Shown: positions 3,877 to 22,882 of the stretch, in pieces | Position numbering within the stretch: the first letter of the stretch is position 1 | Layout: each line of letters begins with the position of its first letter | Assembly: GCF_013466425.1 (NCBI RefSeq) | Contig: NZ_CP059165.1 | Coordinates: 5,456,001-5,520,000 of the forward strand | Reading direction: 5' to 3' | Length of the DNA stretch: 64,000 nucleotides | Origin: Mycobacterium vicinigordonae | Lineage (GTDB): Bacteria > Actinomycetota > Actinomycetes > Mycobacteriales > Mycobacteriaceae | Program-made: the position numbers and the translations under genes | The notes under the pieces: model-generated | The model's database searches: none | Seen by the model: the letters and a program-made list of their open reading frames with translations, nothing else | Told to the model about the DNA's origin: nothing

Positions 3877-4680
3877 CTAAGCAGGCCCCAGCCGGTACTC
3901 GCCGGTGACCGGATCACGGAACCAGCCGCCGGCGGCGTGCGTACCACCGTCGACGTGAATGGTCTGACCGGTGATGTACGTCGACATCCCCGACGCGAGA
4001 AATACTGCGGTGCTTGCGATTTCGTCGACATCACCGGCACGACCCCAGGGCACGACGGCACCCACGGATGGGGTGGCGGTCTGTCCTGCGAGCTGCGCCA
4101 GACCTTCGGTCATGGTGATGTCGGGGGCGATCGCATTAACCCGGATGGCGTGCCGAGCCAATTCCAGTGCGGCGGTCTTGGTGTAGTTCACCACCCCGGC
4201 TTTCGCGGCGGCATAGGCCGCATAACCCGGTGCGGCGCGTACACCCTCAATGGAGGTTACCGCCATGATGCTGCCGGGCAGGCCAGCAGCGACCAACTCT
4301 CGCGCAACCCGCTGGGTGCACAACAGCACGTGCCGCAGGTTGGCGCGATACAGTGCATCCCAACCGTTTTCGCTCGTCTCCAGCAGCGGCGAGGAGAACG
4401 TCCCACCTGCGTTATTGACCAGGATCGTCGGTACACCGAGTTCGGAGATCGTGCGCTGCAGTGCCGCGTCGACCTGACCGCTGTCGCGCACGTCGGTGGT
4501 GACTCCTAGTGCGCCGCTCGATTCGGCCGCATCGTGGCAGCTTTCCGGGTTGCGTTCCCAGATAGCCACTTTCGCGCCAAATGCCGCCAGGCCCGCGGCC
4601 ACACCGCGACCAATGCCCGTTCCTCCACCGGTGACCACCGCGACGCGGCCGGTGAGCAGTATGTCGGAAGGGTCGATCAT
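3877..4680 (-). CDS. SDR-family oxidoreductase
   Basis: Short-chain dehydrogenase of 267 residues. It has the TGGGTGIGRG cofactor loop near residue 17, VNNAGG, catalytic Ser in VTSIEG and YAAAK. The Asn-Ala-Ile-Ala-Pro-Asp segment after the active site is typical of FabG-like enzymes. Its ATG overlaps the TGA of the CoA-transferase gene by four bases (ATGA), so it is the last gene of the long minus-strand operon that starts at the TetR at 13670. It may oxidise a hydroxyacyl-CoA or ring alcohol made by the crotonase upstream; that is inference. Confidence 0.88.
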   Translation of the reverse strand: MIDPSDILLTGRVAVVTGGGTGIGRGVAAGLAAFGAKVAIWERNPESCHDAAESSGALGVTTDVRDSGQVDAALQRTISELGVPTILVNNAGGTFSSPLLETSENGWDALYRANLRHVLLCTQRVARELVAAGLPGSIMAVTSIEGVRAAPGYAAYAAAKAGVVNYTKTAALELARHAIRVNAIAPDITMTEGLAQLAGQTATPSVGAVVPWGRAGDVDEIASTAVFLASGMSTYITGQTIHVDGGTHAAGGWFRDPVTGEYRLGPA

Positions 4681-7064
4681 GCGGGTGCCTGTCCGATGAC
4701 GCCGTCGGCTTCCAGCTCGGCGATCTCGCGTTCATCGACGCCCAGCTCGGCCAGCAACTCGCGGTTGTGTTGTCCCAGTAGAGGTGCGGGCTGGACGTGA
4801 AATCGGTCCGGACCCTCAGACAGCCGCATCGGCACGGTGCTGAGCCGTGCCGGGCCGTTGACCGGATGGTCGACAAGTTCGAAGAAACCCCGTGCCGCCA
4901 GTTGGGCCAGTTCGGTCTGGCGATGCGGCTGCATGACCTTGGCCACCGGGACGCCGGCATCCCACAGCGCGGCCACGATCTGATCGCCGGTTTGCTGCGC
5001 ACACCATTCGGCAAGTTCCTGGTCGATCCGGCCCTGTTGTGCACGGCGGCCCGCGGCGGTGCGAAGCGTCGGATCGGTAGCCCACGAAGGCGATCCGAGC
5101 GCCCTTCGCAGTTCGCACCACTGCTCGTCGGTCGCGACCGCGATGGCGACCCAGCTGTCGAGGCGACCGAACTCGTCGATTTCGTTGGTGCGGTAGAGGT
5201 TCTGCGGGGCCGCCGTGGGCCCGCGATTGCCGGCGCGTTCCAACAGCCTGCCGTAGGCGGAGTATTCGATGACCTGTTCGGCGGCGACGTTGAGCGCCGC
5301 GTCCACCATCGCCGCTTCCACCAGCACTCCCTGCCCGGTCCGGCGCCGGTGTTCCAAAGCCAGCAGCAGCGCGTTGACGGCGTGGATGCCAGCGTTGGGG
5401 TCGCCGACTGAGTATGGCTCGAAGGGCGTGAGGTCAGGGTAGCCAGTCAACCAGCTCACTCCCGAAGCCGACTCGATGACGTAGGCGAAGGCCGGGTTGT
5501 CCCGCCACGGCCCGTCCAGCCCGAAGCCAGGCATCCGCATCAGGACCGCATCCTGCCGAAGATCCTGCACCGCCGACCAATCCACCCCGATCTGATCCAG
5601 CACCCTCGGCGTGAAGTTCTCCGCGATCACGTCACAGGTGGGAATCAGCCGGCGCAGCAGGTCTCTGCCACGCGGATTCTGCAGGTCGAGTGTCAAACCT
5701 TTCTTATTGGTGTTCAGCGCCGCGAAGATCGGCGACTTCTCCCACCACAGTTCTTCGGCGACCGGTATGCCCGCGATCAACCTGGTGCCGTCGGGCCGCC
5801 GGGTGGATTCGACATGAATCACCTCCGCGCCCAACATCGCCAAGAAGTGGGTACAGGACGGGCCCGCCCAGAAAGTTGTCATGTCGAGCACGCGAAGCCC
5901 GCTCAGCGGCAGGCTCTTTGCGGATGTGGCTGGCGCTTGTCGGGGCGGCTGAACGCGCCGGTGCCGCGTGTTGTGCTCACCGAGTCGGGGCGCCGGGCCC
6001 GGTGGGCGCAGTCGCGCCGGTGACATCCGGTAGGGATGGCCGGGCTGGGTGAATCCGTCGCGGGGATTGCGCTGGAAGCTCTCGCGTGCCACGAAATGGT
6101 CCAGCGCCGGAGCATTGGCGCCGTTGGCGACTGGGGCGCTGGGTATCCGGAACGCTTTGGCGAGTTCGCGGATGTCGTCGACGCAGTGACTGCGCACCCA
6201 GGCGTAGATCTCGTCGGCGTGCACGTTGGCCTGTTCGGTGATCGACAGCGGCGAGTCCTCGTCGATCCACTCCGGGTGCCCGACCATCGCGCACAGGTCG
6301 AACCATTGCTGCGCGGTGCCGCAGCCGAGGTCCACCAACCCGTCCTGTGCGGCGGCGACTCCCGGCACGGTCCGACGCCGGGTATCGCGCCACGGTCGGC
6401 CGAGCATCTCGTGGTAGGTCACCGGATAGTAAGTGAGACCCAGGATCTCGGCCTCCAGTATGGACAGGTCGATCAGCCGTCCGTGGCGTGCAAAATGTGC
6501 CGCGAGGGTGGCGGCGCTGGCGTAGGCGCCCGCCAGGTACTCGCCGACCTGGCCGCCGACGAACACCGGGGCGCGGTCGGCAACCCCTCGGCCAAGCCCG
6601 ATGATGCCACCGGACCAGGCTTGCAGGGTGAATTCGGTGGCCGCGCGCTGCGACCACGGTCCGAGCCGACCGAACGGTGTGATCGCCGTGACGATGAGGT
6701 GTGCATGCCGGTCCCGAATCTGCTCCGGGGTAAACGACTGGTGCTCGGCCACTTTCGATCCGCCCGACCACACCACAGCGTCGGCGGAGGCCAGCAGCGT
6801 CTCAACAAGTTCGAGGTCGGCATCGTCGGCCGGATTGGCGACGACGCTAAGCTTCGACCCCGCCAGAAAGCTGAACAACGCGCCGTCGGCACCCGGCTCG
6901 ATGCGCGCACCCGACGCCGACCATGTCCGCAGCGGATCACCCTCCGGTGATTCGATTTTCACGATATCTGCGCCGCCGTCGGCGAGCAGCTTAGAGCAGT
7001 AGGCACCGGCGATCCCGCTGGAGAAGTCGATCACCGCGAAGCCCGTCAACGGAGATTCGGCCAC
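4677..7064 (-). CDS. Fused double-domain class III CoA-transferase (CaiB/BaiF)
   Basis: A 795-residue protein with two CaiB/BaiF domains in tandem: roughly residues 1-345, then a Pro/Arg-rich linker, then 385-795. Family III enzymes move CoA between carboxylic acids using a catalytic Asp that follows a V-x-x-x-M/L-x segment. The second half keeps it (AMVDAA, Asp588); the first half has Glu204 in the matching place (SILEAE). The GTG at 7064 was chosen because it abuts the crotonase stop (TAGTG) and begins the conserved domain; the longer frame upstream only shadows the crotonase. Ordinary family members are about 400 residues and work as intertwined dimers, so this fusion may be an internal pseudo-dimer. 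Confidence 0.88.
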   Translation of the reverse strand: MAESPLTGFAVIDFSSGIAGAYCSKLLADGGADIVKIESPEGDPLRTWSASGARIEPGADGALFSFLAGSKLSVVANPADDADLELVETLLASADAVVWSGGSKVAEHQSFTPEQIRDRHAHLIVTAITPFGRLGPWSQRAATEFTLQAWSGGIIGLGRGVADRAPVFVGGQVGEYLAGAYASAATLAAHFARHGRLIDLSILEAEILGLTYYPVTYHEMLGRPWRDTRRRTVPGVAAAQDGLVDLGCGTAQQWFDLCAMVGHPEWIDEDSPLSITEQANVHADEIYAWVRSHCVDDIRELAKAFRIPSAPVANGANAPALDHFVARESFQRNPRDGFTQPGHPYRMSPARLRPPGPAPRLGEHNTRHRRVQPPRQAPATSAKSLPLSGLRVLDMTTFWAGPSCTHFLAMLGAEVIHVESTRRPDGTRLIAGIPVAEELWWEKSPIFAALNTNKKGLTLDLQNPRGRDLLRRLIPTCDVIAENFTPRVLDQIGVDWSAVQDLRQDAVLMRMPGFGLDGPWRDNPAFAYVIESASGVSWLTGYPDLTPFEPYSVGDPNAGIHAVNALLLALEHRRRTGQGVLVEAAMVDAALNVAAEQVIEYSAYGRLLERAGNRGPTAAPQNLYRTNEIDEFGRLDSWVAIAVATDEQWCELRRALGSPSWATDPTLRTAAGRRAQQGRIDQELAEWCAQQTGDQIVAALWDAGVPVAKVMQPHRQTELAQLAARGFFELVDHPVNGPARLSTVPMRLSEGPDRFHVQPAPLLGQHNRELLAELGVDEREIAELEADGVIGQAPA

Positions 7065-8038
7065 TACCGCTTCTTCTTTCCGCCATCGGCCTTGCGCGCC
7101 TTCTTGCTCAGTCGCCATTCGGGCGGGAACTTGTTGTCGTTGTCCTTGACCGCATCGGCCAGGCCCCGGTCGACGGCAGCGGCCAGGGAGAAGGTGCCAC
7201 CGTCGGGCCGCATCCCGCCGCCCATCGATTCGAACACTCCACTGAGCACACTCCCCAGGTATTCGCCCTGAAACTGTTTCATCACCTCGAAAAACGTCTT
7301 CTGCAGGAAGACCGTGTCGGTGGGCCGATTGCTGGCGCAAGCCAACGCGCACTTCGCCACCTCGGCATCGAGTTGGTCGCGAGGCACCACGCTGTTGAGG
7401 AAGTTGCAGTCGTACATCTCCGCCGCGGTGAAAGCCCTTCCGGTAAAGACCATTTCCTGGAACTTGCGGATGCCCATCGTCTGGGCCCACCACCACATCC
7501 GGGGGCCCCAACCGTAGTATCGAAACGACGGGTGCCCAAACAGCGCGTCGTCACTGGCGATCACGAGGTCGGCATCGGCGGCCTGGTAAAAGTGCCAGCC
7601 GTAGCAATAGCCTTTGGCCTCCACGATGCTGATCTTCTTGAAGTCCTGCAGGCCCCGAATGCCCGAGTTCGGGTTGGCGTACCATTGCCCTATCGCCGCT
7701 CCGTGGCGGAAAGTGTCCTTCGGCGGATACCTGACATCCTCGGTGCCCAAGCCGAATTCGGCGAGCAGCGGCCCTGAGTCGGCAGCATTCTTGGCCTGCA
7801 TGAACTCCTCGAGATCGGCGCCGGAGCCCAGGTCCTCCCCCGCGCCGCGGATGACCACCACCTTGACGTCGTCGTCGAGGCTGGCGCGGTGCAGCAGATC
7901 GGCGTAGCGCCGCCGCGCGGCAATGGTAGGTGCGTTCAGCTGTTCCGGCCGGTCGAAGGTGATGGTGGCGATGCGGGTGGTGATGTCCTTGTCATATCGG
8001 ATGATCTTGCCCGCCTTGCGATCCGCTTTGGCGGCCAT
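7064..8038 (-). CDS. Enoyl-CoA hydratase/isomerase-family protein with atypical active site
   Basis: Crotonase-fold protein of 324 residues, longer than usual (about 260) because of an insertion around residues 85-120 and a Lys/Arg-rich tail. The CoA-binding/oxyanion region GAGEDLGSGADL is present. The two hydratase glutamates are not: where typical enzymes read GGGCEL and FGxPE, this one reads GWHFYQ and FGHPSF. It may therefore catalyse another crotonase reaction such as C-C hydrolysis, isomerisation or decarboxylation. The ATG at 8038 was preferred to a TTG at 8053 because it lies two bases after the preceding stop. It is in the middle of the TetR-controlled operon. Confidence 0.85.
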   Translation of the reverse strand: MAAKADRKAGKIIRYDKDITTRIATITFDRPEQLNAPTIAARRRYADLLHRASLDDDVKVVVIRGAGEDLGSGADLEEFMQAKNAADSGPLLAEFGLGTEDVRYPPKDTFRHGAAIGQWYANPNSGIRGLQDFKKISIVEAKGYCYGWHFYQAADADLVIASDDALFGHPSFRYYGWGPRMWWWAQTMGIRKFQEMVFTGRAFTAAEMYDCNFLNSVVPRDQLDAEVAKCALACASNRPTDTVFLQKTFFEVMKQFQGEYLGSVLSGVFESMGGGMRPDGGTFSLAAAVDRGLADAVKDNDNKFPPEWRLSKKARKADGGKKKR

Positions 8039-8040
8039 GT

Positions 8041-9159
8041 TCAGCCGCGCCAAAACGGACTGGTCGTAAGGACTTCCGGCCCGTCAGGCGCTATCAGCAC
8101 CGCTTCGCGCCCGAACACCGCGCCGACTTCCGGTTTCCAGACATACCCCGTGACGGCCAGCACCATGCCGGGCTGCAGTCGCTCCACCGCCGCGGTGTCC
8201 GGCAGCGACCCCGAGACCACCGGCGGGTCGAACCCCATCCCCAGACCTCGGGCCACCGGCATCGCCGGCAATGGCTCTCCCGCGGCCTGATAAGCGGCCA
8301 GCAGGTCCGCGGCCGGCGCTCCGGGCTGGCATGCGTCAATCAGCTTGTCCCACAGTCGGCCCCAGCGACCGAATACCTCGGCCACGCCCGGCACCGATCC
8401 GACCGGCCAGGTTCGGCCGACCTCACCCACGTAGCCGCCGGCCACCACTCCCGACGACAGCGCCACCAAATCACCGGACTGAATACGACCGTCGCCGCCG
8501 GCACGACGCCAGGGATGTTCACGCGAAGTTACCCACGCCACATCCTGATTCGACGGAGTGCTCACGCCGCCGGCCGCCAACGCCTCTAACAGCACGCCAG
8601 CGAGGTTCGTCTCGTCCATTCCCGGCCGCAGCTCAGACACCGCCGCGGACAGCGCCATCTCGGCAACCTTGATCGACTCGCGCAGCGCCCGGATTTCGTC
8701 GGCGGTCTTGATCCGTCGCGCGGCACGCATAGCCAGCTCCCCATCCACCAGCTCGGCGTCGGGAAACGCTGTCGGCAGCAGCTGGGCGAAACTGGGTGAG
8801 AGCGCGTCGGTTCCGACCCGGCGGGCGGTGGCGGCACCCTCGATGCGCCGAAGCGCCGCCACGGTGTTCACCGGATTCCAGGAGATGCCGTACAGGTTCT
8901 CGTGCGGAATATCTTCCGGCACACCTTCATCCCAGGTACTGAGCAGGTGGATAGCGCCTGTCGCGCGCACCAGCACGCAGCTCGGGCCGAACGGCCGGGT
9001 CCCGGCCACCCAGAGTTGCGGTGCGCCGGTGATATACCGAATGTTGGCCTGCCTGCCCAGGACTAGCACGTCCAGGTCGTGCTCGGCCATCTGGGCCAGC
9101 GCGCGTTCCCGACGACCGTGCCGCAGCGCGGTGTCGTCGGCCAGAACCTCAGTCGACAT
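8041..9159 (-). CDS. M24-family 'pita-bread' protein lacking most metal ligands
   Basis: A 372-residue protein with an N-terminal creatinase/aminopeptidase-like domain and a C-terminal M24 fold, related to its upstream neighbour. Against the five M24 metal ligands, four are replaced: Ser235 and Glu246 stand for the two Asp, Leu306 for the His and Thr337 for the first Glu; Glu352 remains. A dinuclear-metal peptidase activity is thus unlikely. Creatinase shows that the fold can work without metal, so this may be a non-peptidase hydrolase/lyase or a non-catalytic partner of the next protein. The start ATG overlaps the end of the neighbouring gene by 11 bases, which suggests coupled translation. 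Confidence 0.82.
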   Translation of the reverse strand: MSTEVLADDTALRHGRRERALAQMAEHDLDVLVLGRQANIRYITGAPQLWVAGTRPFGPSCVLVRATGAIHLLSTWDEGVPEDIPHENLYGISWNPVNTVAALRRIEGAATARRVGTDALSPSFAQLLPTAFPDAELVDGELAMRAARRIKTADEIRALRESIKVAEMALSAAVSELRPGMDETNLAGVLLEALAAGGVSTPSNQDVAWVTSREHPWRRAGGDGRIQSGDLVALSSGVVAGGYVGEVGRTWPVGSVPGVAEVFGRWGRLWDKLIDACQPGAPAADLLAAYQAAGEPLPAMPVARGLGMGFDPPVVSGSLPDTAAVERLQPGMVLAVTGYVWKPEVGAVFGREAVLIAPDGPEVLTTSPFWRG

Positions 9160-10372
9160 AGGGGGCGTAGGGGTAGTCGGTCAGTTTCATCGAGCCTTCC
9201 TCGGTGATCACCAGGACTTCCTCACTGCGATAGCCGCCGGTCCCGTCCTCCCAGACCACCGGCTCGAGTACCAGCACCATGCCTGATTGCAGCACGAAGT
9301 TCTCGTCGAACTCGTCGCCGAGATCGGTTCCGATCATCGGCATCTCGGCGGCGTTGACGCCGATGCCGTGACCGAGGTAGAAGTGCGGAAGCCACGGCCG
9401 GACGCCGCCGTTGGCGGCAGTGGCAGCGCGACCCAGGTCGGCTGCGGTTGCCCCGGCGCGCGCAACGCCCAGCACGGCATCCATAATGTGGCGCCATTGG
9501 TCGAATTGCGCCTGCTGACGCGGCGACGGGTCCTGTCCGACGATCCAGGTCCGTCCGAAGTCCGAACAGTAACCCTGGTAGGTGATGCTGACGTCGGTCC
9601 ACAGCACGTCACCGCGGACCAGCTCCCGCTCGGTGCTCAGCAGGGGCAGAGCCAGGTCGCCATGCGTGGTCCACACCCCCTCGGCCCGGCTATTTGGCAT
9701 CACCTGCCAGATCGGTTCCAGCATGCTGGCCATGGCCCCGAGTTCGAAGGCGCGGCGCAGAAAGCGACCAGACAGGTCAACTTGGCGGATTCCGGGCGCC
9801 AATGCCTGCTGCACTTCGAGCATTGCCTGGTCGGTGATCCGGACCGCGGTGCGGATGCAGGAAAGTTCATCCGGTGTCTTGACCGCCTTGGCGGCACTCA
9901 CCACAGCCGCGGCGTCCACCGGAGTACCGTTGGGGAACAGTATGTTCCGCGCCCGAGACATGGCACCGGTGAATTCGTCGACCGCCACGGTCGCTCCCAC
10001 CGGGATGAGCTCTGCCAGTTTGCGCGCGAAATCTGAAACGCCCTCGTCGAATTCGAGATAGACAGGTCCATGTCGGTGATCTGACGGCAGGTCCGATTCC
10101 TGCGCGGCACCCTCCCGGAACGGCAGGAACAGGTGCGGCGTGTCGTCGTCGACGAGGACTACCGCAACCGGGCGCTCGACGTAGGACAGCCCGGCATCGC
10201 CCAGCGGCCAACTTGTCCCGGTCGCGTAGACGACGGCGTTATTGCCCAGCAGGATCAGGGCATCGACACCCCGGTCGGTCATCGCCGCGCGGAGCCGCGC
10301 CCCGGTCTCGCGGCGCAGCCGGGTTAGGTCGGGGGTCTCCGGGATGATTAACCGGTCGGTGATCGTGCTCAT
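9149..10372 (-). CDS. M24-family metallopeptidase-like protein (Xaa-Pro aminopeptidase type)
   Basis: A 407-residue creatinase/aminopeptidase-P-like protein. All expected dinuclear-metal ligands can be seen: Asp260 and Asp271 (in VLWTDVS and YCSDFGRTW), His335 (LGHGIG), Glu370 (VLVLEP) and Glu384 (YRSEEV). It may cleave an Xaa-Pro-like imide bond; but in this catabolic operon a small-molecule amide, imide or ester is equally possible, as M24 folds include creatinase and the DMSP lyase DddP. Its ATG overlaps the amidohydrolase stop (ATGA), and its end overlaps the degenerate M24 gene. Confidence 0.87.
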   Translation of the reverse strand: MSTITDRLIIPETPDLTRLRRETGARLRAAMTDRGVDALILLGNNAVVYATGTSWPLGDAGLSYVERPVAVVLVDDDTPHLFLPFREGAAQESDLPSDHRHGPVYLEFDEGVSDFARKLAELIPVGATVAVDEFTGAMSRARNILFPNGTPVDAAAVVSAAKAVKTPDELSCIRTAVRITDQAMLEVQQALAPGIRQVDLSGRFLRRAFELGAMASMLEPIWQVMPNSRAEGVWTTHGDLALPLLSTERELVRGDVLWTDVSITYQGYCSDFGRTWIVGQDPSPRQQAQFDQWRHIMDAVLGVARAGATAADLGRAATAANGGVRPWLPHFYLGHGIGVNAAEMPMIGTDLGDEFDENFVLQSGMVLVLEPVVWEDGTGGYRSEEVLVITEEGSMKLTDYPYAPYVD

Positions 10373-11526
10373 AGGCCCAGAAATTCACGGATGTTGCCGC
10401 TGACAATCCGGACCGCCTGTTCGGACCCGACGGCCTCGACGACGGCCGCGAGCGACTTCTCCGAATAGCCGTATGTGCTTTCGTTGTGCGGGTAGTCGCT
10501 GGACCACATCACCTTGTCCACGCCGATCCGGTCGATCAACTCCAGGCCCAGCGGGTCCACCATGAATGAGGCGCTCATGTGGGTGTCCCAGTAATAGCGA
10601 ACATCGTGCTCAAGCGGGCGGTTGAACATGTGCTGGTAGGAGGCGACTAGATGCTCGGCGTCTTGCAAAGCCCATGGGACCCAAGCGATCCCACCTTCAA
10701 ACCAGCCGATTCGCAGGCCGGGGTGATCGTCGAGGATGCCGGAGAAGAGGTACTTCGCAAACTGCTCGCGAAAGCCGTCAATGTTGATCATCATGCCGAC
10801 CACCACGCTGTTGAACTGACAGGGGGTTTTCGGCGGCGTCTCCCCGATGTGATGCGTGACCGGAAGCCCGGCGGCCTCGATCTCGTCCCACACCGGTCTC
10901 ATCGCGGTGCTGCCATAGTCGATGATGTTTCCGTCGTCATCCTTGCCCGGGTTCAACGGGAGCAGAAACGTCTTGAGCCCCAGCGACTTGAGCTCGGATA
11001 GCGTTTTTCGGGTACCTTCCGGATCCCACCAGTTGATCAGGCCAGCCCCGTAGAAGTGGCCGTTGGACTTCTCCTGCAATTCCGCAATGTACTCGTTGTA
11101 GATACGAAAGGTGAGCTCGCGAAGTGCCTTGTCCGGGTAGTGAAACAGTGCCAGGACGGCGTTCGGGAAGGCAAGCTCTTTGTCGACGCCGTCCTCGCGA
11201 AGTTCTTGAATCCGGGCCTCGATGTTGGTGCTGGCAGCCCCAGGCAGATCATCGTACTGCATGAGCACTGCGCTGAAGTCACCCGGCAGGAACGACTGAC
11301 CCTTGCGGCCAACCTGGTATGCACCGTCCTCGTACCAGATTCGCGGTGCCTTGTCCTTGAGGTTTTCGGGAAAGCGCTCGTAGAAGATGTCGGAGGCCAA
11401 CGAGATGTGATTGTCGGCGGAGAACACCTCGGTCCCGGCGGGCAGGCCAACGTTGCTGTCGAGGGCGTGACCTTTGCGATCCTTGGGTGCGCCAAAGCCT
11501 TTCGGTGGGTAAAGCGTGCTTGTCAT
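10369..11526 (-). CDS. Amidohydrolase-family (TIM-barrel) hydrolase or decarboxylase
   Basis: A 385-residue protein of the amidohydrolase 2 family, which includes ACMSD-type decarboxylases and TIM-barrel hydrolases. Family marks are the early SADNHIS motif (a variant of the D-x-H metal site), the central VTHHIGE, WFEGGIAW, and the final MWSSDYPHNES with the conserved Asp. The ATG at 11526 was chosen because GAGAGG lies a few bases upstream and the longer frame only crosses the P450 end. A 40-bp gap separates it from the P450, and its end overlaps the M24 gene. A carbon-carbon bond hydrolysis or decarboxylation role is inferred. Confidence 0.85.
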   Translation of the reverse strand: MTSTLYPPKGFGAPKDRKGHALDSNVGLPAGTEVFSADNHISLASDIFYERFPENLKDKAPRIWYEDGAYQVGRKGQSFLPGDFSAVLMQYDDLPGAASTNIEARIQELREDGVDKELAFPNAVLALFHYPDKALRELTFRIYNEYIAELQEKSNGHFYGAGLINWWDPEGTRKTLSELKSLGLKTFLLPLNPGKDDDGNIIDYGSTAMRPVWDEIEAAGLPVTHHIGETPPKTPCQFNSVVVGMMINIDGFREQFAKYLFSGILDDHPGLRIGWFEGGIAWVPWALQDAEHLVASYQHMFNRPLEHDVRYYWDTHMSASFMVDPLGLELIDRIGVDKVMWSSDYPHNESTYGYSEKSLAAVVEAVGSEQAVRIVSGNIREFLGL

Positions 11527-11566
11527 CGTTGACCTCTCGAATACTTCTGTGGGCTGCGTATCGGGC

Positions 11567-12811
11567 TTACCAGGTGACCGGCAGTTCGTAGACGCCGTAG
11601 GCAAGCCGGTCATCCTTGAACGGGATGCCTTCCAGCGGCGCCGCCAACTCGAGTGTGGGCACCCGTCGGAACAGAGTCCGGAAGACGATCTGCATCTCGG
11701 CACGGGCAAGCTGCTGGCCCACGCACTGATGCCGGCCGTAGCCGAACGCGACGTTACGGTCCGCGTTGGACCGGTGGAGATAGAGCCGGTCCGGTTCGGT
11801 GAAGGCGTGTGCGTCCCAATTCGCCGGGGCCAGGTCGATGATGATGCCCTCCCCGGCGCGAATCACCTCGCCGGCGATCGGAATGTCCTCGACGGCGACG
11901 CGACGCTGACCGTTCTGGATGATGCTGAGATAACGCAGCAACTCCTCCACGGCGTTGGCCACAATCTTGGGGTCTTCCGCATCGCGGATCGCTGGCAGCT
12001 GGTCCGGATTCTGCAGCAGCGCTAGCACCCCGAGGCCGAGCATGTTCGCAGTGGTCTCATGCCCTGCGATCAGCAGCCCGGTGCCCAATTGCGCGGCTTC
12101 TTTGACGCTCAGTTCGCCTGCCTTGACCCGTTCGGCCAGATCGGAGACCGCGTCCTCGGCGGGGTTCTGCATCTTCGCTTCGACTAATTGGCACAGATAC
12201 TTGTGCAGGCTCATGGCACCTTTGACGGTGTCCTCACCGGTGGCGTACCGCGCGAGACCGACGTTGGCGTGGTGCTGAAACATCTCGGCATCCTCGTAGG
12301 GCACCCCCAACAGCTGGCTGATCACCAGCGAAGGCACCGGCAACGCGATCGCGGTGACGATGTCGGCCGGTTGCGGTCCGGCCAGCATCATGTCGATGTG
12401 GTCGTCAGTGATCTGCTGGATGGCCGGCCGGAGTGCTTCTACCCGCCGAAAAGTGAATGGCTTGGATAACATTCGGCGGAATCGAGTGTGCTCGTCGCCG
12501 TCGGACGTGAACACCGAGCGGGGCCGTTTGTGCACCGTCGACAACATGCCGGCGTTCCAGTGCGGAAAGCCCGGCACCCGGTCGTCCACACTTACCCTCG
12601 AATCCGAGAACAGCTCGCGGCACTGCTCGTAGCCGGTGATGAGCCAGGGTGTGCTGCCGTCCCAGATCCGCACCCGGGAAAGGGGTTTGGCATCGGCCAA
12701 CGCCATGACCTCCGGGGGTGGGGCGAACGGACAGCCCGCCGCTCGCGCCATCGGATACTCGGGGATGCTGGTATCGGTCGTGCTGTCGGTGAGCGTGTCG
12801 GGCAAGGTCAC
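11567..12811 (-). CDS. Cytochrome P450 (CYP105-like appearance)
   Basis: Soluble P450 of 414 residues. The I helix reads LLIAGHETTANM, the ExxR is EELLR, and the haem loop is VAFGYGRHQCVG with the thiolate Cys. The N-terminal PMARAAGCPFAPPP and the DGDEHTRFRRMLSKPFT segment resemble CYP105-type actinobacterial enzymes. Its GTG overlaps the ferredoxin stop (GTGA), so ferredoxin and P450 are translationally coupled and very likely redox partners. As the second enzyme in the TetR-led operon it probably performs the first hydroxylation of the substrate. Confidence 0.93.
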   Translation of the reverse strand: MTLPDTLTDSTTDTSIPEYPMARAAGCPFAPPPEVMALADAKPLSRVRIWDGSTPWLITGYEQCRELFSDSRVSVDDRVPGFPHWNAGMLSTVHKRPRSVFTSDGDEHTRFRRMLSKPFTFRRVEALRPAIQQITDDHIDMMLAGPQPADIVTAIALPVPSLVISQLLGVPYEDAEMFQHHANVGLARYATGEDTVKGAMSLHKYLCQLVEAKMQNPAEDAVSDLAERVKAGELSVKEAAQLGTGLLIAGHETTANMLGLGVLALLQNPDQLPAIRDAEDPKIVANAVEELLRYLSIIQNGQRRVAVEDIPIAGEVIRAGEGIIIDLAPANWDAHAFTEPDRLYLHRSNADRNVAFGYGRHQCVGQQLARAEMQIVFRTLFRRVPTLELAAPLEGIPFKDDRLAYGVYELPVTW

Positions 12812-13002
12812 TCCTCGATCTGGATTGCCAGCGCCGGGCAGAATGCGGCAGCTTTACGGGTCGCGTCGGCCTGGTCGGCGGGAGGGTTCGGGTTGAGCAG
12901 GACGACGACGCCGTCCTCATCACGCTGGTCGAAGACCTCCGGCGCGTTCATCACGCAGTTGCCTGACGAAGCGCAGATATCTTGGTCGACAGTGACTTTC
13001 AT
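12808..13002 (-). CDS. 3Fe-4S ferredoxin
   Basis: A 64-residue single-cluster ferredoxin. Cys10 and Cys16 (CASSGNC) and a later Cys-Pro (FCPAL) give the three-cysteine pattern of 3Fe-4S ferredoxins that serve actinobacterial P450s; the middle position that would bind a fourth iron is not Cys. The acidic C-terminus (AIQIEE) is usual. The ATG at 13002 was chosen over the longer frame because the protein then begins MKVTVDQDIC, and it overlaps the TetR stop (ATGA). It is the expected electron donor to the next-door P450. Confidence 0.92.
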   Translation of the reverse strand: MKVTVDQDICASSGNCVMNAPEVFDQRDEDGVVVLLNPNPPADQADATRKAAAFCPALAIQIEE

Positions 13003-13670
13003 CTCTTCGGCTTTTCGGTTACAGGTGTGACGGGTGCCAGCCACAGGCCGACGATCGCATCGATGAGACCGGTGGCGGCGGCCCGCCAGGACGGGCGCGG
13101 TAACGACGTGCCCTCGGCCAGGGCACGCTCGAGGTCCGCGCAGGTGTGCATCAAAAGGTTGCGCGCCATGATGTTTCGCTCGAATCGGACGGAGACCGGC
13201 AGGTCGGGTAGGCAGCTGTTGATGCCGTCGATCACCTCAACCAGCGACGAAGAACTCAGCGCATCCTTAACGACGAGGTTGTGGTAGGCCGGATCGGTCA
13301 TAGCCTGCGCGGCGAATCGGGCGTACCAGGTGGGGTTGCCCAGTTCCTCCAGGTGCTCGGTGAGGGGGCAGACCAGGCAGGCGACCCAGTCCCGCATCTC
13401 GGCTGCGGCGGGCAGGCCGGCCACCATCTTCTCCCGCAGTCGCTCGACGGGCCCGCGGTGCTTCTGCTCGATGGCACGCACCAGGTCCGCCTTGGTGCCG
13501 AAGTGGTATCCGACCGCGGCGTTGTTGCCCTGTCCGGCCGCCTCGCTGACCTGCCGGTTGGACACCGCGAATACGCCGTGTTCGGCGAATAGCCGCTCGG
13601 CGGCGGCCAGGATCGCCTCCTGTGTGGAGCTGGCCCGGTCGCTGCGCACGGGTCGACCGACTGTGGTCAT
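12999..13670 (-). CDS. TetR-family regulator, first gene of the catabolic operon
   Basis: A 223-residue TetR protein. The HTH region is AILAAAERLFAEHGVFAVSNRQVSEAAG followed by a canonical VGYHFGTKADLVRAI. The ATG at 13670 was preferred to a TTG at 13682. A 22-bp palindrome lies 28 bp upstream of the start, and an almost identical palindrome lies 28 bp upstream of the SDR at 19556. The simplest reading is autoregulation, with this protein repressing its own operon and the distant SDR until a pathway compound binds. Its stop overlaps the ferredoxin start. Confidence 0.88.
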   Translation of the reverse strand: MTTVGRPVRSDRASSTQEAILAAAERLFAEHGVFAVSNRQVSEAAGQGNNAAVGYHFGTKADLVRAIEQKHRGPVERLREKMVAGLPAAAEMRDWVACLVCPLTEHLEELGNPTWYARFAAQAMTDPAYHNLVVKDALSSSSLVEVIDGINSCLPDLPVSVRFERNIMARNLLMHTCADLERALAEGTSLPRPSWRAAATGLIDAIVGLWLAPVTPVTEKPKR

Positions 13671-13697
13671 GCCGCCAGTCAACCGCGCTTGCCCGCG

Positions 13698-13719
13698 TTA
13701 AGTCAAGCGATTGATTTAA
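13698..13719. promoter_or_regulatory. Putative TetR operator (copy 1)
   Basis: A 22-bp inverted repeat: TTAAGTCAA, four bases, TTGATTTAA. The arms match at 9 of 11 positions. It sits 28 bp upstream of the TetR start and shares 20 of 22 bases with the copy at 19584-19605. Confidence 0.7.
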
Positions 13720-13755
13720 TCTGCAGCGGATCGGCCCGGATGGCCCGTACCTGCG

Positions 13756-15273
13756 CTACGACGTCAGGTCAGTGGTGGCCGGGCCTTCCAGCAGCGTGCC
13801 GTCCGGCGCGAACCGCGACCCGTGCAGGGGGCACTCCCAGGCCTGATCGGCGTCGTTCCAATTGACTATGCCTCCCAGGTGTGGGCAGACCGGCGAGACG
13901 CGATGCTCGATGCCGTCGACCCTTGACCTGGCCTCCAGATGCCACGGTGGACCGCTGACCACCCCGGCGCCGTCATCGGTCGGGCTGCGACGCGTCAGGT
14001 GCACCGATGGTGTGATCCATCCCTTGGTCAGGTTGAACCCCACTTCGAGGTTGGACATCACAGCCGATGACAGCCCGGCCAGCTCGTGGCGGCTCCAACT
14101 GGCGAACGCATCGGCCCAGTCCATCCGCCCACCCAGGATTCTGGTCGATAGCGCCAACGCCGCAGCAGGTCCGTTAGTCATTCCCCATTTGTTGAAACCC
14201 GTTGCCACGAAGATGCTTTCGAAGTTGGGAAGGATCGGGCCAACATAGGGCAGTTCGTCGATGGGCTCGTAGTCTTGTGCCGACCAGAAGTGCGTCTGCG
14301 CCGCACCGGGGTAGTGCAGACGTGTCCACGACGACAGCTCGTCGAGCGCCTTGGAGGGGCTCCTCTCGCGGCCGACGGTGTGTCCCGCGCCGCCCACGAT
14401 CAGCAGCTCGCCGTCTCCGACAAGCGCGTACCGGACGGATCGCGTCGGCGAGTCGGTCGAGATCATCATCGGCCGGGTGATGCTGCCGGGAACCTTGAAT
14501 GCCATGCAATAGGACCGTTGCGGCTTCACGCGGGCGAAGTAGCCGCCGCGGTCCAGGATGGGGATTCCGGTGGCCAGCACCAGCTGGCCCGCCCGCACTT
14601 CGACTTCGCGCCGCAACTCATCGTTCACCTGCACGCGGACCCCATTGCCGCGGCTAGACACCTTACGTACTCGACAATTCTCGACTAGTCGCCCGCCGTG
14701 TTCGAGCAACTCGACGGTCAGCGTATCCAGCAGCGTCATCGGATCGAACTGTGCCTGCTGGGGCAGCCGGACGCCGCCACGGTAGGGAAACGGTACCGGG
14801 GCGTCGTCCTCCCACGTGACTGGCAGGCCCACCGTCTGCGCGGCCTTGAACTCGGCATGCGCCGATGCGAGGCCCTTGTCGGACTGGGCATAGCTATAGG
14901 CGTCCTCGTGCTGCACCGCCACACCGTGCTGCTCGCAGTATTTGAGCAACCACTCCATGCCTTCCCGGTTGCCGTCGACGTAGGCACGGGCGGTATCGCG
15001 GCCGTGTTTAGGCAGGATCTTCGACAGGTGCGTGGCCTGCAGCAAGCTGAGCTTGGACGTGGTGTTGCCGCTGGCGCAGGCGCCGACGCTGCGCGCCTCG
15101 ACCACCAGCACATCTTTGCCGGCGCGGGCCAGCAGCACCGCGGTCGTCAGCCCGGTTATCCCAGCACCCACGACAACGACGTCAGCGGATGCCGGCCCCT
15201 CGGCGAGTATGCTCGCCGCCCAGGGCTTTTGGTTGTGCTCGGCAAGCCAGAGAGAAGTCCGCAAAGGAGCCAT
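13756..15273 (-). CDS. FAD-dependent oxidoreductase with C-terminal Rieske domain
   Basis: A 505-residue fusion. Residues about 30-380 form a D-amino-acid-oxidase-type flavoprotein with the dinucleotide motif VVVVGAGITGLTTA and a C-terminal FVATGFNKWGMTNG. The last 60 or so residues form a Rieske domain with CPHLGG and CPLHG, the Cys/His pairs that bind a 2Fe-2S cluster. This arrangement is known in the YhfW/glycine-oxidase-like group, whose substrates are mostly unknown. It ends 85 bp before the TetR start and reads the same way, but the operator lies between them, so it is probably a separate unit. Confidence 0.87.
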   Translation of the reverse strand: MAPLRTSLWLAEHNQKPWAASILAEGPASADVVVVGAGITGLTTAVLLARAGKDVLVVEARSVGACASGNTTSKLSLLQATHLSKILPKHGRDTARAYVDGNREGMEWLLKYCEQHGVAVQHEDAYSYAQSDKGLASAHAEFKAAQTVGLPVTWEDDAPVPFPYRGGVRLPQQAQFDPMTLLDTLTVELLEHGGRLVENCRVRKVSSRGNGVRVQVNDELRREVEVRAGQLVLATGIPILDRGGYFARVKPQRSYCMAFKVPGSITRPMMISTDSPTRSVRYALVGDGELLIVGGAGHTVGRERSPSKALDELSSWTRLHYPGAAQTHFWSAQDYEPIDELPYVGPILPNFESIFVATGFNKWGMTNGPAAALALSTRILGGRMDWADAFASWSRHELAGLSSAVMSNLEVGFNLTKGWITPSVHLTRRSPTDDGAGVVSGPPWHLEARSRVDGIEHRVSPVCPHLGGIVNWNDADQAWECPLHGSRFAPDGTLLEGPATTDLTS

Positions 15274-15301
15274 GAGTCGCTGATACCCGCGAACAACGCC
15301 G

Positions 15302-15683
15302 TCAAACAGCGGGCCACAGTATCGGCCTGCCTCCGGTAACGGCTACCCGCGCACCGGAGACGTAGCTGGCGTCGTCGGATGCCAGCAGGACGTAGACCGC
15401 CGCCAATTCGGCCGGCTGGCCAGCTCGACCCAGTGGAACGCTGTCACCGAAGAACTTCACCTTCTCGGCGGGCATGGTCGCCGAGATCAGCGGAGATTTC
15501 CTCCAGGCTCTGGTACGTCATCTGGTAAGCGGTATTGTTGACCAGAGTGTCGATGTACCCGAATTCGGCTGCGGCGCAGTCGATAACGGCGCGCTTTAGG
15601 CCGGGGACGGTTTGTTGCTGCTCGGGGAATGCCATGACAGGCGGACTAGCCGTTCGGAACCCGGATAAATGTGCTGCGTCCAA
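15302..15683 (-). pseudogene. Remnant of an SDR gene (two frames, central part deleted)
   Basis: On the minus strand one frame contains AEFGYIDTLVNNTAYQ, the NNAx region of an SDR; about 20 codons later a different frame takes up with [20 protein letters not shown] and ends with [13 protein letters not shown], the end of an SDR of the YhdF type. The roughly 110 residues that should lie between, including the Tyr-Lys active site, are missing, as is the N-terminal cofactor loop. The frame change at the junction around 15480 shows that a deletion broke the gene. It cannot be an active dehydrogenase. Confidence 0.7.
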
Positions 15684-15870
15684 AGCTTGTAGGGCCCGCG
15701 CGGCGACGCTGTCGGCGACGTTTGGCTCGACGGATCAGGGGTACTACCGGGGCTGGTGTTCTTCAGCCCAGCAGGAACAACTCTGCGACTCAGAGGTTGT
15801 TCGCAGCCAGCGGTGGCCAGTTGGCGCCGCTGCGCGCCATTGAAATCAATGTTGTCGAAAGGAACTCGTC

Positions 15871-16185
15871 ATGGTGCGTGTCGCGTCGGTACCCGCCTCG
15901 CACGTTTACGCGCGGCACCTGGTCGATACGGAGATCAATTGCGTTGTCCGCCTTGATGACCCCGTTCCTGCGGACGGGCACACCGTGCCCGATGGCTGGT
16001 GGCCAATGGCGGGATGGCTCTCGTCGTTCGAAGCCAGCGGCCACATCCGCCGCCGAGCCGACGGTCGACCGGTCCGCAGAGTCAGAGTGGAACGGTCCGC
16101 AATCGCTGGTCGAGAACAGATCTCGTTGCACGACAACGTTTTTGCAAATTGCGGAAGAATCCCTTCGAACGTATCAGGAGTTGAT
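15871..16185 (+). pseudogene. 105-codon reading frame in frame with katE, possible glycosyltransferase N-terminal remnant
   Basis: An ATG at 15871 with AAGGA eight bases upstream opens a frame that runs without a stop into the catalase. Its first 45 residues (RVASVPASHVYARHL, then VPADGHTVPDGWWP) resemble, from memory, the start of an actinobacterial glycosyltransferase family. After that the protein has no recognisable pattern. I read it as a truncated gene whose remains join katE by chance, but an N-terminally extended catalase cannot be excluded. The 190 bp before it (15684-15870) hold nothing I recognise. Confidence 0.35.
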
Positions 16186-18321
16186 ATGTCTGTAGCGCGC
16201 AAGCCGTCCCAATCCACGCCCCGCCGCATCAGCCCGACTGGTGCTTCCACCAGTTCCGATGGCCTCGACAACGACCCGCGCGCACAGCAAGGTTCGTTTT
16301 TGACCACCGCCGAGGGGCTGCGACTGCCCGACACCGACCACTCGCTCAAGGCCGGCAGCCGAGGTCCGAGCCTGCTGGAGGACTTTCACCTTCGGGAGAA
16401 GATCACCCACTTCGACCACGAGCGTATTCCCGAGCGGGTCGTACACGCCCGCGGCGCAGCGGCGCACGGTGTATTCGAGGCCTACGGAAATGCGTCCGAC
16501 TACACCCGGGCAGCCTTCCTGGCCCGCAAAGCCAACAAGACCGACGTGTTCTGCCGCTTCTCCACCGTGCTGGGTTCGCGCGGCTCGGCCGACACGGTCC
16601 GCGACACCCGCGGCTTCGCGGTGCGGTTCTACACCGACGAAGGCAATTTCGACTTGGTGGGCAACAACATTCCGGTCTTCTTCATCCAAGATGGCATCAA
16701 GTTCCCCGATATCATCCACGCCGGCAAGCCGCATCCGGACCGTGAAATCCCGCAGGCGCAGTCCGCCCACGACACCTTCTGGGACTTCGTGTCGTTGCAC
16801 ACCGAGGCCACCCACCACGTGTTCTGGAATATGAGCGACCGGGGCATCCCGCGTTCCTACCGCACCATGGAGGGATTCGGCGTCCACACCTTCCGGCTGG
16901 TGAACCTGCGCGGCAAGACCAGCCTGGTCAAATTTCACTGGAAGCCGGTGGCGGGTGTGCACTCGCTGGTATGGGAGGAAGCGCAGATCGCTGCGGGGTG
17001 CGATCCCGACTTCCACCGCCGCGACATGGCGGACGCCATCGACGCGGGTGCCTTCTTTGAGTACGAACTCGGAATCCAGGTCATGCCCGACGACGGGACC
17101 GACAGCTATGACGGCATCGACTTGCTCGATCCGACGAAGATCGTTCCCGAAGAGCTGGTTCCGGTCACGCTGATCGGCAAGCTCACGCTGAACCGCAACC
17201 CCACCAACTACTTCGCCGAGACTGAGCAGGTCGCATTTCACACGGGCAACTTTGTTCCGGGCATCGAGCCGACAAACGACCCGCTGATGCAGGCCCGGCT
17301 GTTCTCCTACCTCGACACCCAACTGACCCGGCTCGGCGGACCAAATTTCACTCAGCTGCCGATCAACCGTCCGCACTGTCCGGTCAATGACATGCTGCGG
17401 GACGGCATGCACCAGAACGCCATTCACCAGGGTCTGGCCCCCTACCGTCCCAACAGCATCGACGATGGGGAGCCCGAGGTTGCTGACGCCGACGACGGCG
17501 GCTACGTGCAGACTCGGCGCTTGATCGAAGGAAGCGCCGTCCGCGCCAATCCCGTGTCGTTCGAGGACCACTTCAGCCAGGCGGCGATTTTCTATCGCAG
17601 TCTGAGCCGCGTCGAGCAGCTGCATGTGATAGAGGCATTTACCTTCGAACTGGGCAAGTGCTACGAGCAGTCGATAAAAGAACGCGAGTTGGAGGTACTC
17701 GCAAATGTCGATACCGATCTGTGTCAGCAAGTCGCGGTTGGCCTGGGGCTGCCGGCGCCGAAAGGCAATCCGCCGAAAGACGTTTCGCCGTCACCCGCCT
17801 TGTCCCAGGTATATGCCGAACCGGGCCCCGTGGCGGGCCGCAAGGTCGGCATCATCGCCGACTCGGGCTCGGATCTCGCCGGCGTCGGGAAACTGATCAA
17901 GGCGGTAACTGCCGCCGGAGCGGTTCCGCTGCTCACCGCTCCGGGCGGCGGAAAACTCAAGTCGGGCCGACGGATCGAGGTGGTCGAGCGCACCCTGCTG
18001 ACCGCGCGGTCGATCGAGTTCGACGCGGTGGTGGTGGCGGCGGGTACCACCCCGACCGGCGACATCAAGCTAGTAACTTTGCTGCAGGAGGCTTTTCGGC
18101 ACTGCAAGCCAGTGGCCGCGTGGGGGGATGGTGTGGCTGTCCTGGAATCGGCCGGTATCTCGCGCGACGGTCCGGGTGTGCTGATCGCCGATGACGTCGA
18201 CAAGAAAACCACTGCCGGGCTGCTGGCCGCACTCGGTATGCACCGGGCGTGGGATCGCGCGCCGACGGTCATGGCGTCGGCGGTTCCTCCCGCGAATAGG
18301 CGTCCGGCGAAGAAGAAGTGA
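16186..18321 (+). CDS. katE: Large-subunit (clade 2) catalase HPII type
   Basis: Haem catalase of 711 residues, the size of KatE/HPII enzymes with the extra C-terminal flavodoxin-like domain. The core shows [12 protein letters not shown] with the catalytic His, [19 protein letters not shown] with the essential Asn, and the proximal haem-Tyr region RLFSYLDTQ. The C-terminal part (from about residue 545, [13 protein letters not shown]) is the DJ-1/PfpI-like domain. The ATG at 16186 was chosen because AGGAG lies five bases before it. It decomposes hydrogen peroxide in the cytoplasm and may protect against the many oxygenases nearby. Its 3' end overlaps the convergent DoxX gene by 53 bp. Confidence 0.95.
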
Positions 18322-18718
18322 CACGAGCCAAAGGCCGCGTGCACCACAGCGCCCAGACCACCAGCAACGGCTGGAACAGTAGGCGGATACCACGAGCCAG
18401 GTCGGAATTCAGACCGAAAGCATTCGTGTGCGTGACGAATTGGGAGATGTTACCGGGAAACACCAGCACAAAGAACAGCGCGACCGCCCAGCCGACGGAC
18501 GCGCGCCACCGGGTGAGCAGCAGCAGTGCCGCTCCGAGCACGAGTTCCACCACACCCGAGGCGCTGACCACGAAGTCGGTATCCAGCGGGAGCCATGGAG
18601 GCACCTGTGCATAGAAAGTGGTTCGCGCAAACGTCAGATGCCCGACTCCTGCGAAGATCAGCACGCCGGCGAGAACTGCCCGCCCGACGGTGCGTAAGAG
18701 GGAGGCCACCGGGTGCAC
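18269..18718 (-). CDS. DoxX-family membrane protein
   Basis: A small integral membrane protein of 149 residues with four predicted transmembrane segments: LLRTVGRAVLAGVLIFAGVG, VVELVLGAALLLL, SVGWAVALFFVLVFPG and a last one near LLFQPLLVVWAL. The early GHLTF and the PWLP motif are typical of the DoxX/YphA group. DoxX-like proteins of mycobacteria have been linked to membrane redox complexes, but the function here is unknown. It is convergent with katE and overlaps its 3' end; the start used is GTG at 18718. Confidence 0.75.
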   Translation of the reverse strand: MHPVASLLRTVGRAVLAGVLIFAGVGHLTFARTTFYAQVPPWLPLDTDFVVSASGVVELVLGAALLLLTRWRASVGWAVALFFVLVFPGNISQFVTHTNAFGLNSDLARGIRLLFQPLLVVWALWCTRPLARVTSSSPDAYSREEPPTP

Positions 18719-18746
18719 CCAACCAGTATGTCTCTCGGCGGCAACA

Positions 18747-19556
18747 TCAATCCGCCCGTGTGCGAGAACGATTCACTTTGCCGGCTACGGTCCCCCCGTC
18801 AACCGGTAGCACCGTCCCGGTAACGTACCGAGACCGGTCGGTCGCGAAATACAGAGCGGCCTCTGCCACGTCGTCGGGCGTACCCTCGCGCTTGAGCGGG
18901 CGGTCGTCGCGCATGGTCTGGCGAATCGCTGCCTCGAAACGCTCAAGCTCGGCGGGATCCTTCGCGCTGGACGACGATGCCAGGATCGAAGTCGGTATGT
19001 TGCCGGGCGCGATAGCGTTGACCCGAATCTCGTAGCGGGCCAGGTCGATTGCCGCCGACTTGGTGAACTGGATGACGGCCGCCTTGGAAGCTCGATAGGT
19101 CATCACACCGCCGCCGGCCTGGATCCCACCGATCGAGGTCACATTGATGATGGAGCCGCCGCCATGGTCCGCCATGTGCCGCGCGGCGTCCCGGGTGCCG
19201 GCCATCACGCCCAACACGTTGACCCCCATCACCCGGTAGAAGTCCTCGAAGTCCTCGTCAAGCAACCGGCGCAACGGGCCCGAGATGCCGGCGTTGTTCA
19301 CCATGACGTGCAACCCACCGAATTTCTCGACCGCCACGGCAACCACCGCGGCAACCTGTTCCTGGTCGGAAACGTCGGTCTGATGAAATATCGCGGACGG
19401 CCCTAAGGCGTCGGCCAACTCGTCGCCAAGATCGGTCCGGACGTCGGCAATAACCACCCGGGCGCCCTCGGCGACAAACCGCTGCACCATGCCCCGGCCG
19501 ATACCCGCAGCCCCGCCGGTGACCACAGCCACCTTGTCCGTCAATTCGTTGACCAC
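18747..19556 (-). CDS. SDR-family oxidoreductase carrying the shared TetR operator
   Basis: Classical SDR of 269 residues with TGGAAGIGRG, MVNNAGIS, Ser in VTSIGG, and YRASK. The Asn-Ala-Ile-Ala-Pro-Gly segment after the active site and the final PVDGG are canonical. The start is a GTG at 19556. A 22-bp palindrome ends 28 bp upstream and is nearly identical to that before the TetR at 13670, so this gene is probably a satellite of that regulon and performs one oxidation step of the same pathway. It is 28 bp upstream of the DoxX gene in the same direction and could be co-transcribed with it. Confidence 0.88.
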   Translation of the reverse strand: MVNELTDKVAVVTGGAAGIGRGMVQRFVAEGARVVIADVRTDLGDELADALGPSAIFHQTDVSDQEQVAAVVAVAVEKFGGLHVMVNNAGISGPLRRLLDEDFEDFYRVMGVNVLGVMAGTRDAARHMADHGGGSIINVTSIGGIQAGGGVMTYRASKAAVIQFTKSAAIDLARYEIRVNAIAPGNIPTSILASSSSAKDPAELERFEAAIRQTMRDDRPLKREGTPDDVAEAALYFATDRSRYVTGTVLPVDGGTVAGKVNRSRTRAD

Positions 19557-19583
19557 CCGTCGAGTTAATCGGGGCGGCCCTCA

Positions 19584-19605
19584 TTAAGTCAAGCACTTGA
19601 TTTAA
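19584..19605. promoter_or_regulatory. Putative TetR operator (copy 2)
   Basis: TTAAGTCAA, four bases, TTGATTTAA; the arms match at 9 of 11 positions. It lies 28 bp upstream of the SDR start, the same distance as copy 1 from the TetR start. The core CAAG-N2-CTTG resembles the reported KstR2 motif, but the flanks differ. Confidence 0.7.
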
Positions 19606-22600: not shown

Positions 22601-22882
22601 ATGCAGGCCAATACGCAGCCGAAGCGGGGCCAACGGTGCGAGCTGCAAGGCCAGCGCACACGCGACGGCGTCGCTGGCCCTGCTGAAGGCGATCACGAAG
22701 CTGTCGCCCTCGCCTTGTTCGACCGCACGCACGCCGTGATGGTCGTCCACCAACCGGGCCAACGTCGTATCGAGGCGGGCGACGGCCCCCGTCATGTCTG
22801 CTGGACAGCTCTGCCACAGCGCGGTGGAGCCTTCGACGTCGGCCAGCAACAGCGTCACCGTTCCAGTCGGCAGTTCGCTCAC
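19634..22882 (-). CDS. Cyclase-AAA ATPase-LuxR regulator
   Basis: A very large regulator of about 1082 residues. Domain order: class III adenylate/guanylate cyclase domain at residues 1-170 (LLLADVEGST and QGEGDSFVIAF supply the two metal Asp), an NB-ARC/AAA domain with Walker A GAGGVGKT and FVFDNCEH, a helical TPR-like region, and a C-terminal LuxR HTH (LTPTEIDVARLVSDGLTNKD then FVSPRTVQAHL). M. tuberculosis has several paralogues of this plan (for example Rv0386 and Rv2488c). The GTG at 22882 was chosen because GGAG lies seven bases upstream and the conserved start ELPTGTVT follows; an ATG at 22936 is possible. Confidence 0.88.
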   Translation of the reverse strand: MSELPTGTVTLLLADVEGSTALWQSCPADMTGAVARLDTTLARLVDDHHGVRAVEQGEGDSFVIAFSRASDAVACALALQLAPLAPLRLRIGLHSGEIQLRDTASYIGSTVNRAARVRDLAHGGQTVLTTATEQLVIDSLPGGVWLTDLGSYQLRDLARPERIVQLCHPDLLGEFPPLRSANIGAAQTVPIPLTSFVGRSAEITELEGILDEHRLVTLTGAGGVGKTRLASELAARVAGDAADPVHYVDLAPIADADLVEAAVAEAVGMHQQPGRSIVDVAAARIANRRALFVFDNCEHVREAAAAVVLSLLSRCPAVRVLATSREPLRLAAEVNWQVPSLALADEAVQLFADRARHVQPDFGLTVGNLDVVTEICRRLDGMPLAIELAAARMRALSAADIRDSLQDRFLLLNGGSHTAVRRQQTLRASVDWSHSMLGEAEAVLFRRLGVFAGGFDLDSVVAVCECGQRYQVLDQLTLLVEKSLVQANSVDDRARYRMLETIRDYALEKLEEAGEADAVLTRHRNHYSSLAAELDVSARDDFRRRVDRVEADIDNMRAAFTYCCGGGEHAAALALASSLQPLWQGRGRLREGLTWFDAILTDKGLDPDDVAPEVYARAIADKVFLDSFTVAHYPMDQAERAVETARGLGDHALLSRTLTACGCLAGLDFDLAARYLSEANELARLTGDDWRLSQILGRQAYLAAMAGDPVAASAIGVEGADIANALDDWSNEHSCRWAIGMSQMFRADLAGAVETYRRVFADCESDSDGVGMMLCLISQGCTLVYRGEVAEANRIGRAAMAAGAELDVMLERAAGTVMAMAAVAQGDADSARAISRTVWEFPAVQRGTVAITAITQCAHLDGDLARARELADEAVTSLAGWHRMYALGIRAHIASDLGDYEQSRRDVREALSVATTNQGRLGVPLILEALARLAVQADRHTDATRILAAADAMRNGTGEFRFPIYQGSYRAALDTCVNMLGDNGFQEVWAEGAALSPEDAIAYAMRGRGERKRPGTGWAALTPTEIDVARLVSDGLTNKDIAERLFVSPRTVQAHLTHMYTKLGYTSRVQLAQEAVRRNGPG

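Follow-up and report, generated by a model that had tools for sequence, protein, structure and literature searches.

A TetR-family regulator encoded in the 64,000-nt stretch of Mycobacterium vicinigordonae DNA analysed here (the window) very probably controls its own nine-gene operon and a separate SDR gene through two copies of one palindromic site. This reading of the sequence, which a preliminary description had already put forward, is the best supported one because the twin sites are unique in the genome and conserved at both genes, and because TetR and SDR show one and the same presence pattern across 198 genomes. As a local regulon of two units the system appears to be real, well conserved and ordinary in kind; its history and the promoter layout shared by both units are the interesting part. 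The palindrome offers a testable candidate operator for a TetR that is uncharacterised and occurs in 153 of 198 Mycobacterium genomes sampled. Among the papers listed by the literature searches, whose reach excluded most subscription journals, none describes this regulator or operator as judged from titles and abstract starts.

Twin operators in the window and genome

The 22-bp palindrome TTAAGTCAA-N4-TTGATTTAA occurs without mismatch at both positions given in the preliminary description (Table 1), and 100 dinucleotide shuffles of the window yielded no match to it. As described there, the copies share 20 of 22 bases, differing at two positions, and their near edges lie at -28 from the TetR ATG and the SDR GTG, leaving 27 bp between site and start codon at both genes. 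The proposed search for further copies covered the full genome, a single contig of 6,266,765 bases: at ≤3 mismatches, TTAARTCAANNNNTTGAYTTAA matched only the two known places, and the backwards control pattern matched one place in the same scan. At this threshold no operator was found at katE, the FAD/Rieske gene or the small ORF.

Table 1 Features of the TetR locus and of the displaced SDR, in window coordinates
Feature	Position	Strand	Remarks
SDR, operon's last gene	3877..4680	-	family match
CoA-transferase family III	4677..7511	-	matched in two stretches; limits are those of the ORF, with the true start probably near 7070
enoyl-CoA hydratase/isomerase family protein	7064..8053	-	family match
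M24 / creatinase-fold protein b	8041..9159	-	family match
M24 / creatinase-fold protein a	9149..10372	-	family match
PF04909 amidohydrolase-superfamily protein	10369..11709	-	ORF limits; true start probably near 11570
cytochrome P450, CYP105Q4 type	11567..12811	-	match to PDB 8swl
single-cluster ferredoxin	12815..13002	-	start overlaps TetR stop
TetR-family regulator	12999..13670	-	ATG start; PF00440, PF17939
-10-like TTGACT before TetR (putative)	13677..13682	-	18 bp from -35-like box, 6 nt before ATG; differs from TANNNT at second base
operator 1 (candidate)	13698..13719	-	minus strand TTAAATCAATCGCTTGACTTAA; upstream of TetR; ≤3 mismatches in 80/80 fetched loci (best 80 of 523)
-35-like TTGACT in operator 1 (putative)	13701..13706	-	assigned from spacing
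DNA between SDR and TetR	13756..18718		small ORF, katE, FAD/Rieske gene
FAD/Rieske oxidoreductase	13756-15273	-	between SDR and TetR
katE	16186-18321	+	between SDR and TetR
small ORF	18269-18718	-	beside displaced SDR
displaced SDR, regulon's second unit	18747..19556	-	GTG start
-10-like TTAACT before SDR (putative)	19563..19568	-	18 bp from -35-like box, 6 nt before GTG
operator 2 (candidate)	19584..19605	-	minus strand TTAAATCAAGTGCTTGACTTAA; upstream of SDR; site ≤45 bp from SDR start in 64/75 loci + window
-35-like TTGACT in operator 2 (putative)	19587..19592	-	assigned from spacing

Genes of the operon and its surroundings

The nine-gene operon described earlier was recovered: TetR heads a run of minus-strand genes whose ORFs nearly touch or overlap, in the order TetR, ferredoxin, P450, PF04909 protein, two M24-family proteins, enoyl-CoA hydratase family protein, CoA-transferase III and SDR. 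Membership of the regulator in the TetR family is indicated by its N-terminal HTH (PF00440, 35.3 bits, cut-off 24) and by a conserved palindromic operator near its own gene at 80/80 orthologous loci (best 80 of 523); the C-terminal domain matched PF17939 (27.8 bits, cut-off 26.3).

The P450 aligns over nearly its full length (residues 5-414) with residues 3-414 of M. marinum CYP105Q4 (PDB 8swl; 812 bits, E 6.3e-244). According to the available text of PMC6237146, the ferredoxin Fdx9 lies beside CYP105Q4 in M. marinum, much as a ferredoxin gene here adjoins the closely matching P450. The table of that paper lists Fdx9 as lacking a counterpart in M. tuberculosis, and CYP105Q4 kept its spin state with every substrate tested there; a difference is that a TetR goes unmentioned in the main text. 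The link between the SDR and this orphan P450 may aid the search for its substrate. CYP105Q4 is reportedly also the subject of a later structure paper.

The best solved matches of the PF04909 protein were PtmU3 and DitZ, the latter of which we take to be part of diterpenoid breakdown. The accessible part of PMC10811679 places PtmU3 in PF04909 as a dinuclear monooxygenase and counts carboxylases, hydratases and hydrolases among the other members of that family. Because the family is thus mixed in activity, the protein could be an oxygenase or a hydrolase. Our guess is that the operon breaks down a lipid- or terpenoid-like acid by an oxidative, CoA-linked route.

Several features of the surroundings are recorded here as separate observations. 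Past the operon end, at 905-2970, lie a second P450 (905-2107) and a mycofactocin-coupled SDR (2023-2970, TIGR03971 above cut-off). A large LuxR-type regulator with guanylate-cyclase-like and AAA domains occupies 19634-22978 and stops a short way upstream of operator 2. A putative SDR gene remnant, seen by eye at about 15310-15600, is flanked by katE and the FAD/Rieske gene. The small ORF had no family match in Pfam or NCBIfam.

Conservation and co-occurrence

Of 523 loci that encode a TetR relative, the 80 with the best matches were used for comparison. They include several strains of one species and are therefore not independent; with the window they give 81 TetR rows. The SDR comparison, for which an SDR with enough upstream DNA was required, comprises 76 rows (75 loci and the window), five loci (L007, L027, L032, L061 and L081) having been left out for lack of an SDR match at the cut-off or for too little DNA. 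Each of the 80 fetched loci (best 80 of 523) has the site, with ≤3 mismatches, 23-30 bp upstream of the aligned start of TetR (none in 59 loci, one in 15, two in 5 and three in 1). Their 1,580,404 bases hold 67 further sites at ≤4 mismatches, at most one per locus: 64 are located 24-42 bp before the start of an SDR orthologue, two (L051, L052) 68 bp before one, and the last at L061, a locus without SDR match. A second copy thus stands close before the SDR in 64 of the 75 loci with a usable SDR orthologue from this set. In the half-sites the columns reach or approach 2 bits, and the outer flank and most of the spacer stay below 1 bit. Within 9.5 kb downstream of TetR (71 loci covering that length), the P450, the PF04909 gene and each M24 gene were found in 70/71 loci, and all seven genes checked occurred in this order in 40/71 at the cut-offs used.

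Across the 198 Mycobacterium genomes, the site was present at ≤2 mismatches in 150, and the backwards control pattern in 3. With cut-offs of E 1e-60 for TetR and E 1e-95 for SDR, each of the two genes occurred in 153, and the two sets of genomes were identical. Site and TetR were both present in 149 genomes, TetR only in 4, the site only in 1 and neither in 44 (Fisher 3.5e-38, with relatedness ignored); the 149 count co-presence per genome and not a site positioned at TetR, and some of these genomes also have a paralogous TetR. All four genomes with TetR only (G027, G099, G140 and G041, the last with a TetR that is 59% identical) have a 3-mismatch site just upstream of TetR, and the site in the single site-only genome, G089, resembles those of the paralogue. 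In the wider family, TetR relatives at E 1e-40 were found in 37 of 151 genomes, ten of them in the window's genus; of the 27 from other genera, 20 were represented by loci, and the site (≤3 mismatches, ≤150 bp upstream) occurred in 5 of these 20.

A shared promoter layout

Both promoters have the same arrangement: the TTGACT of the operator, 17-18 bp, TTNACT, usually 6 nt, and the start codon. In the layout search a spacer could measure 16-19 and a gap 3-8, and the start codon could differ from the aligned one by up to three codons. All 81 TetR rows have TTGACT, 17 or 18 bp, and TTGACT or TTCACT, with a gap to the start codon of 6 nt in 64 rows, 7 in 16 and 3 in one. Among the SDR rows the layout is present in 64/76, with TTAACT (TTGACT in one) as the -10-like box, a spacer of 18 bp (59 rows) or 17 bp (5 rows), and a 6-nt gap in 61/64; locus L028 has a close operator and an offset aligned SDR start, which places it outside this count.

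At both genes of the window the -10-like box, 18 bp downstream of the -35-like box, leaves 6 nt up to the start codon, which makes leaderless transcripts probable; the accessible text of PMC3898074 defines these by a start codon ≤5 nt from the transcription start. Shine-Dalgarno-like words, which occur in 13% of random 17-mers, were found at -20..-4 in 0/65 SDRs with a close operator versus 10/11 without one, and at -12..-4 in 0/65 versus 5/11. For TetR they appear in 27/81 rows at -20..-4 and in none of the 81 at -12..-4, the region where such a word would be expected. Their absence alone proves little because all five further genes of the operon that were checked in the window are without such words too; the contrast between the SDR lineages is the stronger point.

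The same text of PMC3898074 describes many leaderless transcripts in M. tuberculosis, with TANNNT at 73% of primary starts and 27% without it. Every row with the layout carries TTNACT instead, and in view of this departure from TANNNT the -10 box, assigned from spacing, is putative. The start points are putative as well. Lacking the A of the mycobacterial consensus, the assigned promoter may be wrong or weak. Taken together, the layout suggests that both promoters are leaderless and that the repressor would cover their -35 regions.

The SDR as a displaced neighbour

The preliminary description regarded the SDR as a distant satellite across katE. It is indeed separated from TetR here, by 5,076 bp with katE in between, but in 35 of the 76 rows it lies directly upstream of TetR (distance ≤202 bp), the other 41 having distances of ≥605 bp. 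A newly recruited far target is ruled out since adjacency of the two genes is common in relatives; judging from these arrangements, the SDR of the window is a displaced former neighbour of TetR that has kept its own site. All 41 separated rows retain a close SDR operator at ≤3 mismatches. The inserts differ among the 12 loci examined, whose contents were read by eye, and the nearest relative (G045) has an insert with katE, FAD/Rieske and small-ORF genes, as in the window.

Among the 35 adjacent rows, the operator is close in 24, far in 2 and absent within 300 bp in 9. Control of the SDR is not universal, because 9/76 rows have no site within 300 bp and 2 have one 68 bp away. In the nine rows without a site, a same-strand frame overlaps the SDR start or ends ≤28 bp from it; the two rows with a far site have no such frame. 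Five of the nine frames were scanned and all five encode an alpha/beta hydrolase. These nine loci mostly bear Mycolicibacterium names or belong to unnamed species.

On a quick tree of the joined TetR and SDR proteins, separation requires at least 12 changes. A close operator versus the rest requires a single change (support 88, quick tree), and the three states close, far and none require 3. The association of operator and separation is not statistically independent, because the rows without a close operator fall beyond one branch. It is conceivable, at somewhat less than an even chance in our view, that promoter capture preceded gene scattering: the SDR of one lineage may have gained a tetR-like, leaderless-type operator-promoter, perhaps a copy of the tetR one, and only in that lineage did the genes part, repeatedly. 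If so, the module would have let the SDR move with the regulon still whole. Species in which the two genes adjoin and species in which they are parted together provide a natural series on regulon cohesion during gene drift.

Proposed control and alternative readings

We consider it highly likely that TetR represses its own operon and the SDR via twin operators at leaderless promoters, the SDR being a displaced neighbour. The palindrome would be the operator of the TetR of Table 1, and a repressor dimer would sit on TTAARTCAA-N4-TTGAYTTAA at both places, where it would cover TTGACT, the likely -35 box of each promoter. A ligand, perhaps the pathway acid or its CoA ester, may release the dimer, upon which the nine-gene oxidative/CoA-linked operon and the SDR would be switched on together. 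The SDR would once have stood next to tetR and later been parted from it by katE, the FAD/Rieske gene and the small ORF, with its operator-promoter retained.

That TetR binds both sites and activates from them is unlikely. Were the start codon also the transcription start, the operators would be centred near -38.5, close to the position of a class II activator, and the weak TTNACT box could need help; against this, the site covers the -35 region itself, and TetR-family proteins are often repressors, as the literature excerpts consulted describe them. A working tetR site with a mere relic at the SDR is the least credible alternative and extremely improbable: the nine SDR rows without a site would fit it, whereas the site persists in every separated row and the SDR half-sites keep close to 2 bits per column beside a drifting flank.

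Binding of one or both sites by another regulator, such as KstR2, we regard as very improbable. The core of operator 2 does resemble the KstR2 motif AnCAAGnnCTTGnT (accessible text of PMC3068626) and its flanks differ, as had been pointed out correctly; counted by eye, copy 2 matches 9/10 of the specified letters and copy 1 8/10. The full motif was nevertheless found in 0/81 TetR sites and 0/65 SDR sites, and the window contains no copy of it; the core CAAGNNCTTG is present in 24/81 TetR sites and only 4/65 SDR sites, and the site tracks TetR across the 198 genomes. Among 40 PDB sequences matched at E 0.01 there was no recognisable KstR2 entry. KstR2 was thus rejected on motif and distribution, and from these letters and counts we judge the resemblance to be superficial. 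The KstR2 regulon, as far as PMC3068626 was available, is similar in that a short palindrome marks both the gene of its TetR-type repressor and a few nearby promoters; it differs in a motif that no site here matches in full, in having three sites between divergent genes as opposed to two head-to-tail units, and in comprising a 15-gene cholesterol regulon and not a CYP105Q4-type operon. Conserved palindromes near TetR genes were likewise found by comparison by Balhana et al. 2015 (PMC4482099), whose accessible text deals with 30 divergently oriented regulators with M. tuberculosis numbers, whereas the TetR described here heads its own operon.

Paralogues and additional sites

Nine loci (L114-L121 and L124) carry a second TetR, 60-66% identical, behind a variant site with a sequence close to TAAATAAACTGCTTGATTTA; among the matches obtained, a P450 of the same type follows it in all of them but L121. 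Cross-talk between the two repressors is possible. In genome G196, a one-mismatch site (L113:3179-3200) precedes the second TetR match by ~950 bp; it is also close to where the main operon ends. Other genomes hold a few sites at neither TetR nor SDR, namely L122:3713-3734, L123:3967-3988 and L194:2967-2988, with 1-2 mismatches and no adjoining TetR match; that of L194 is flanked by an acyl-CoA thioesterase gene on one side and an SDR-like ORF on the other.

A limonene-1,2-epoxide-hydrolase-like gene occurs in 18/198 genomes, all with two TetR matches, and PF07858 was found in the two copies scanned. At the cut-off applied, the window's genome gave no match to this gene. The variant palindrome is near this gene in 5/18 loci (L196, L197, L198, L200 and L201). 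In three genomes (L188-L190), a large frame starts on the far side of the variant site; in L188 it encodes an L-lactate permease (PF02652), and the other two look alike by eye.
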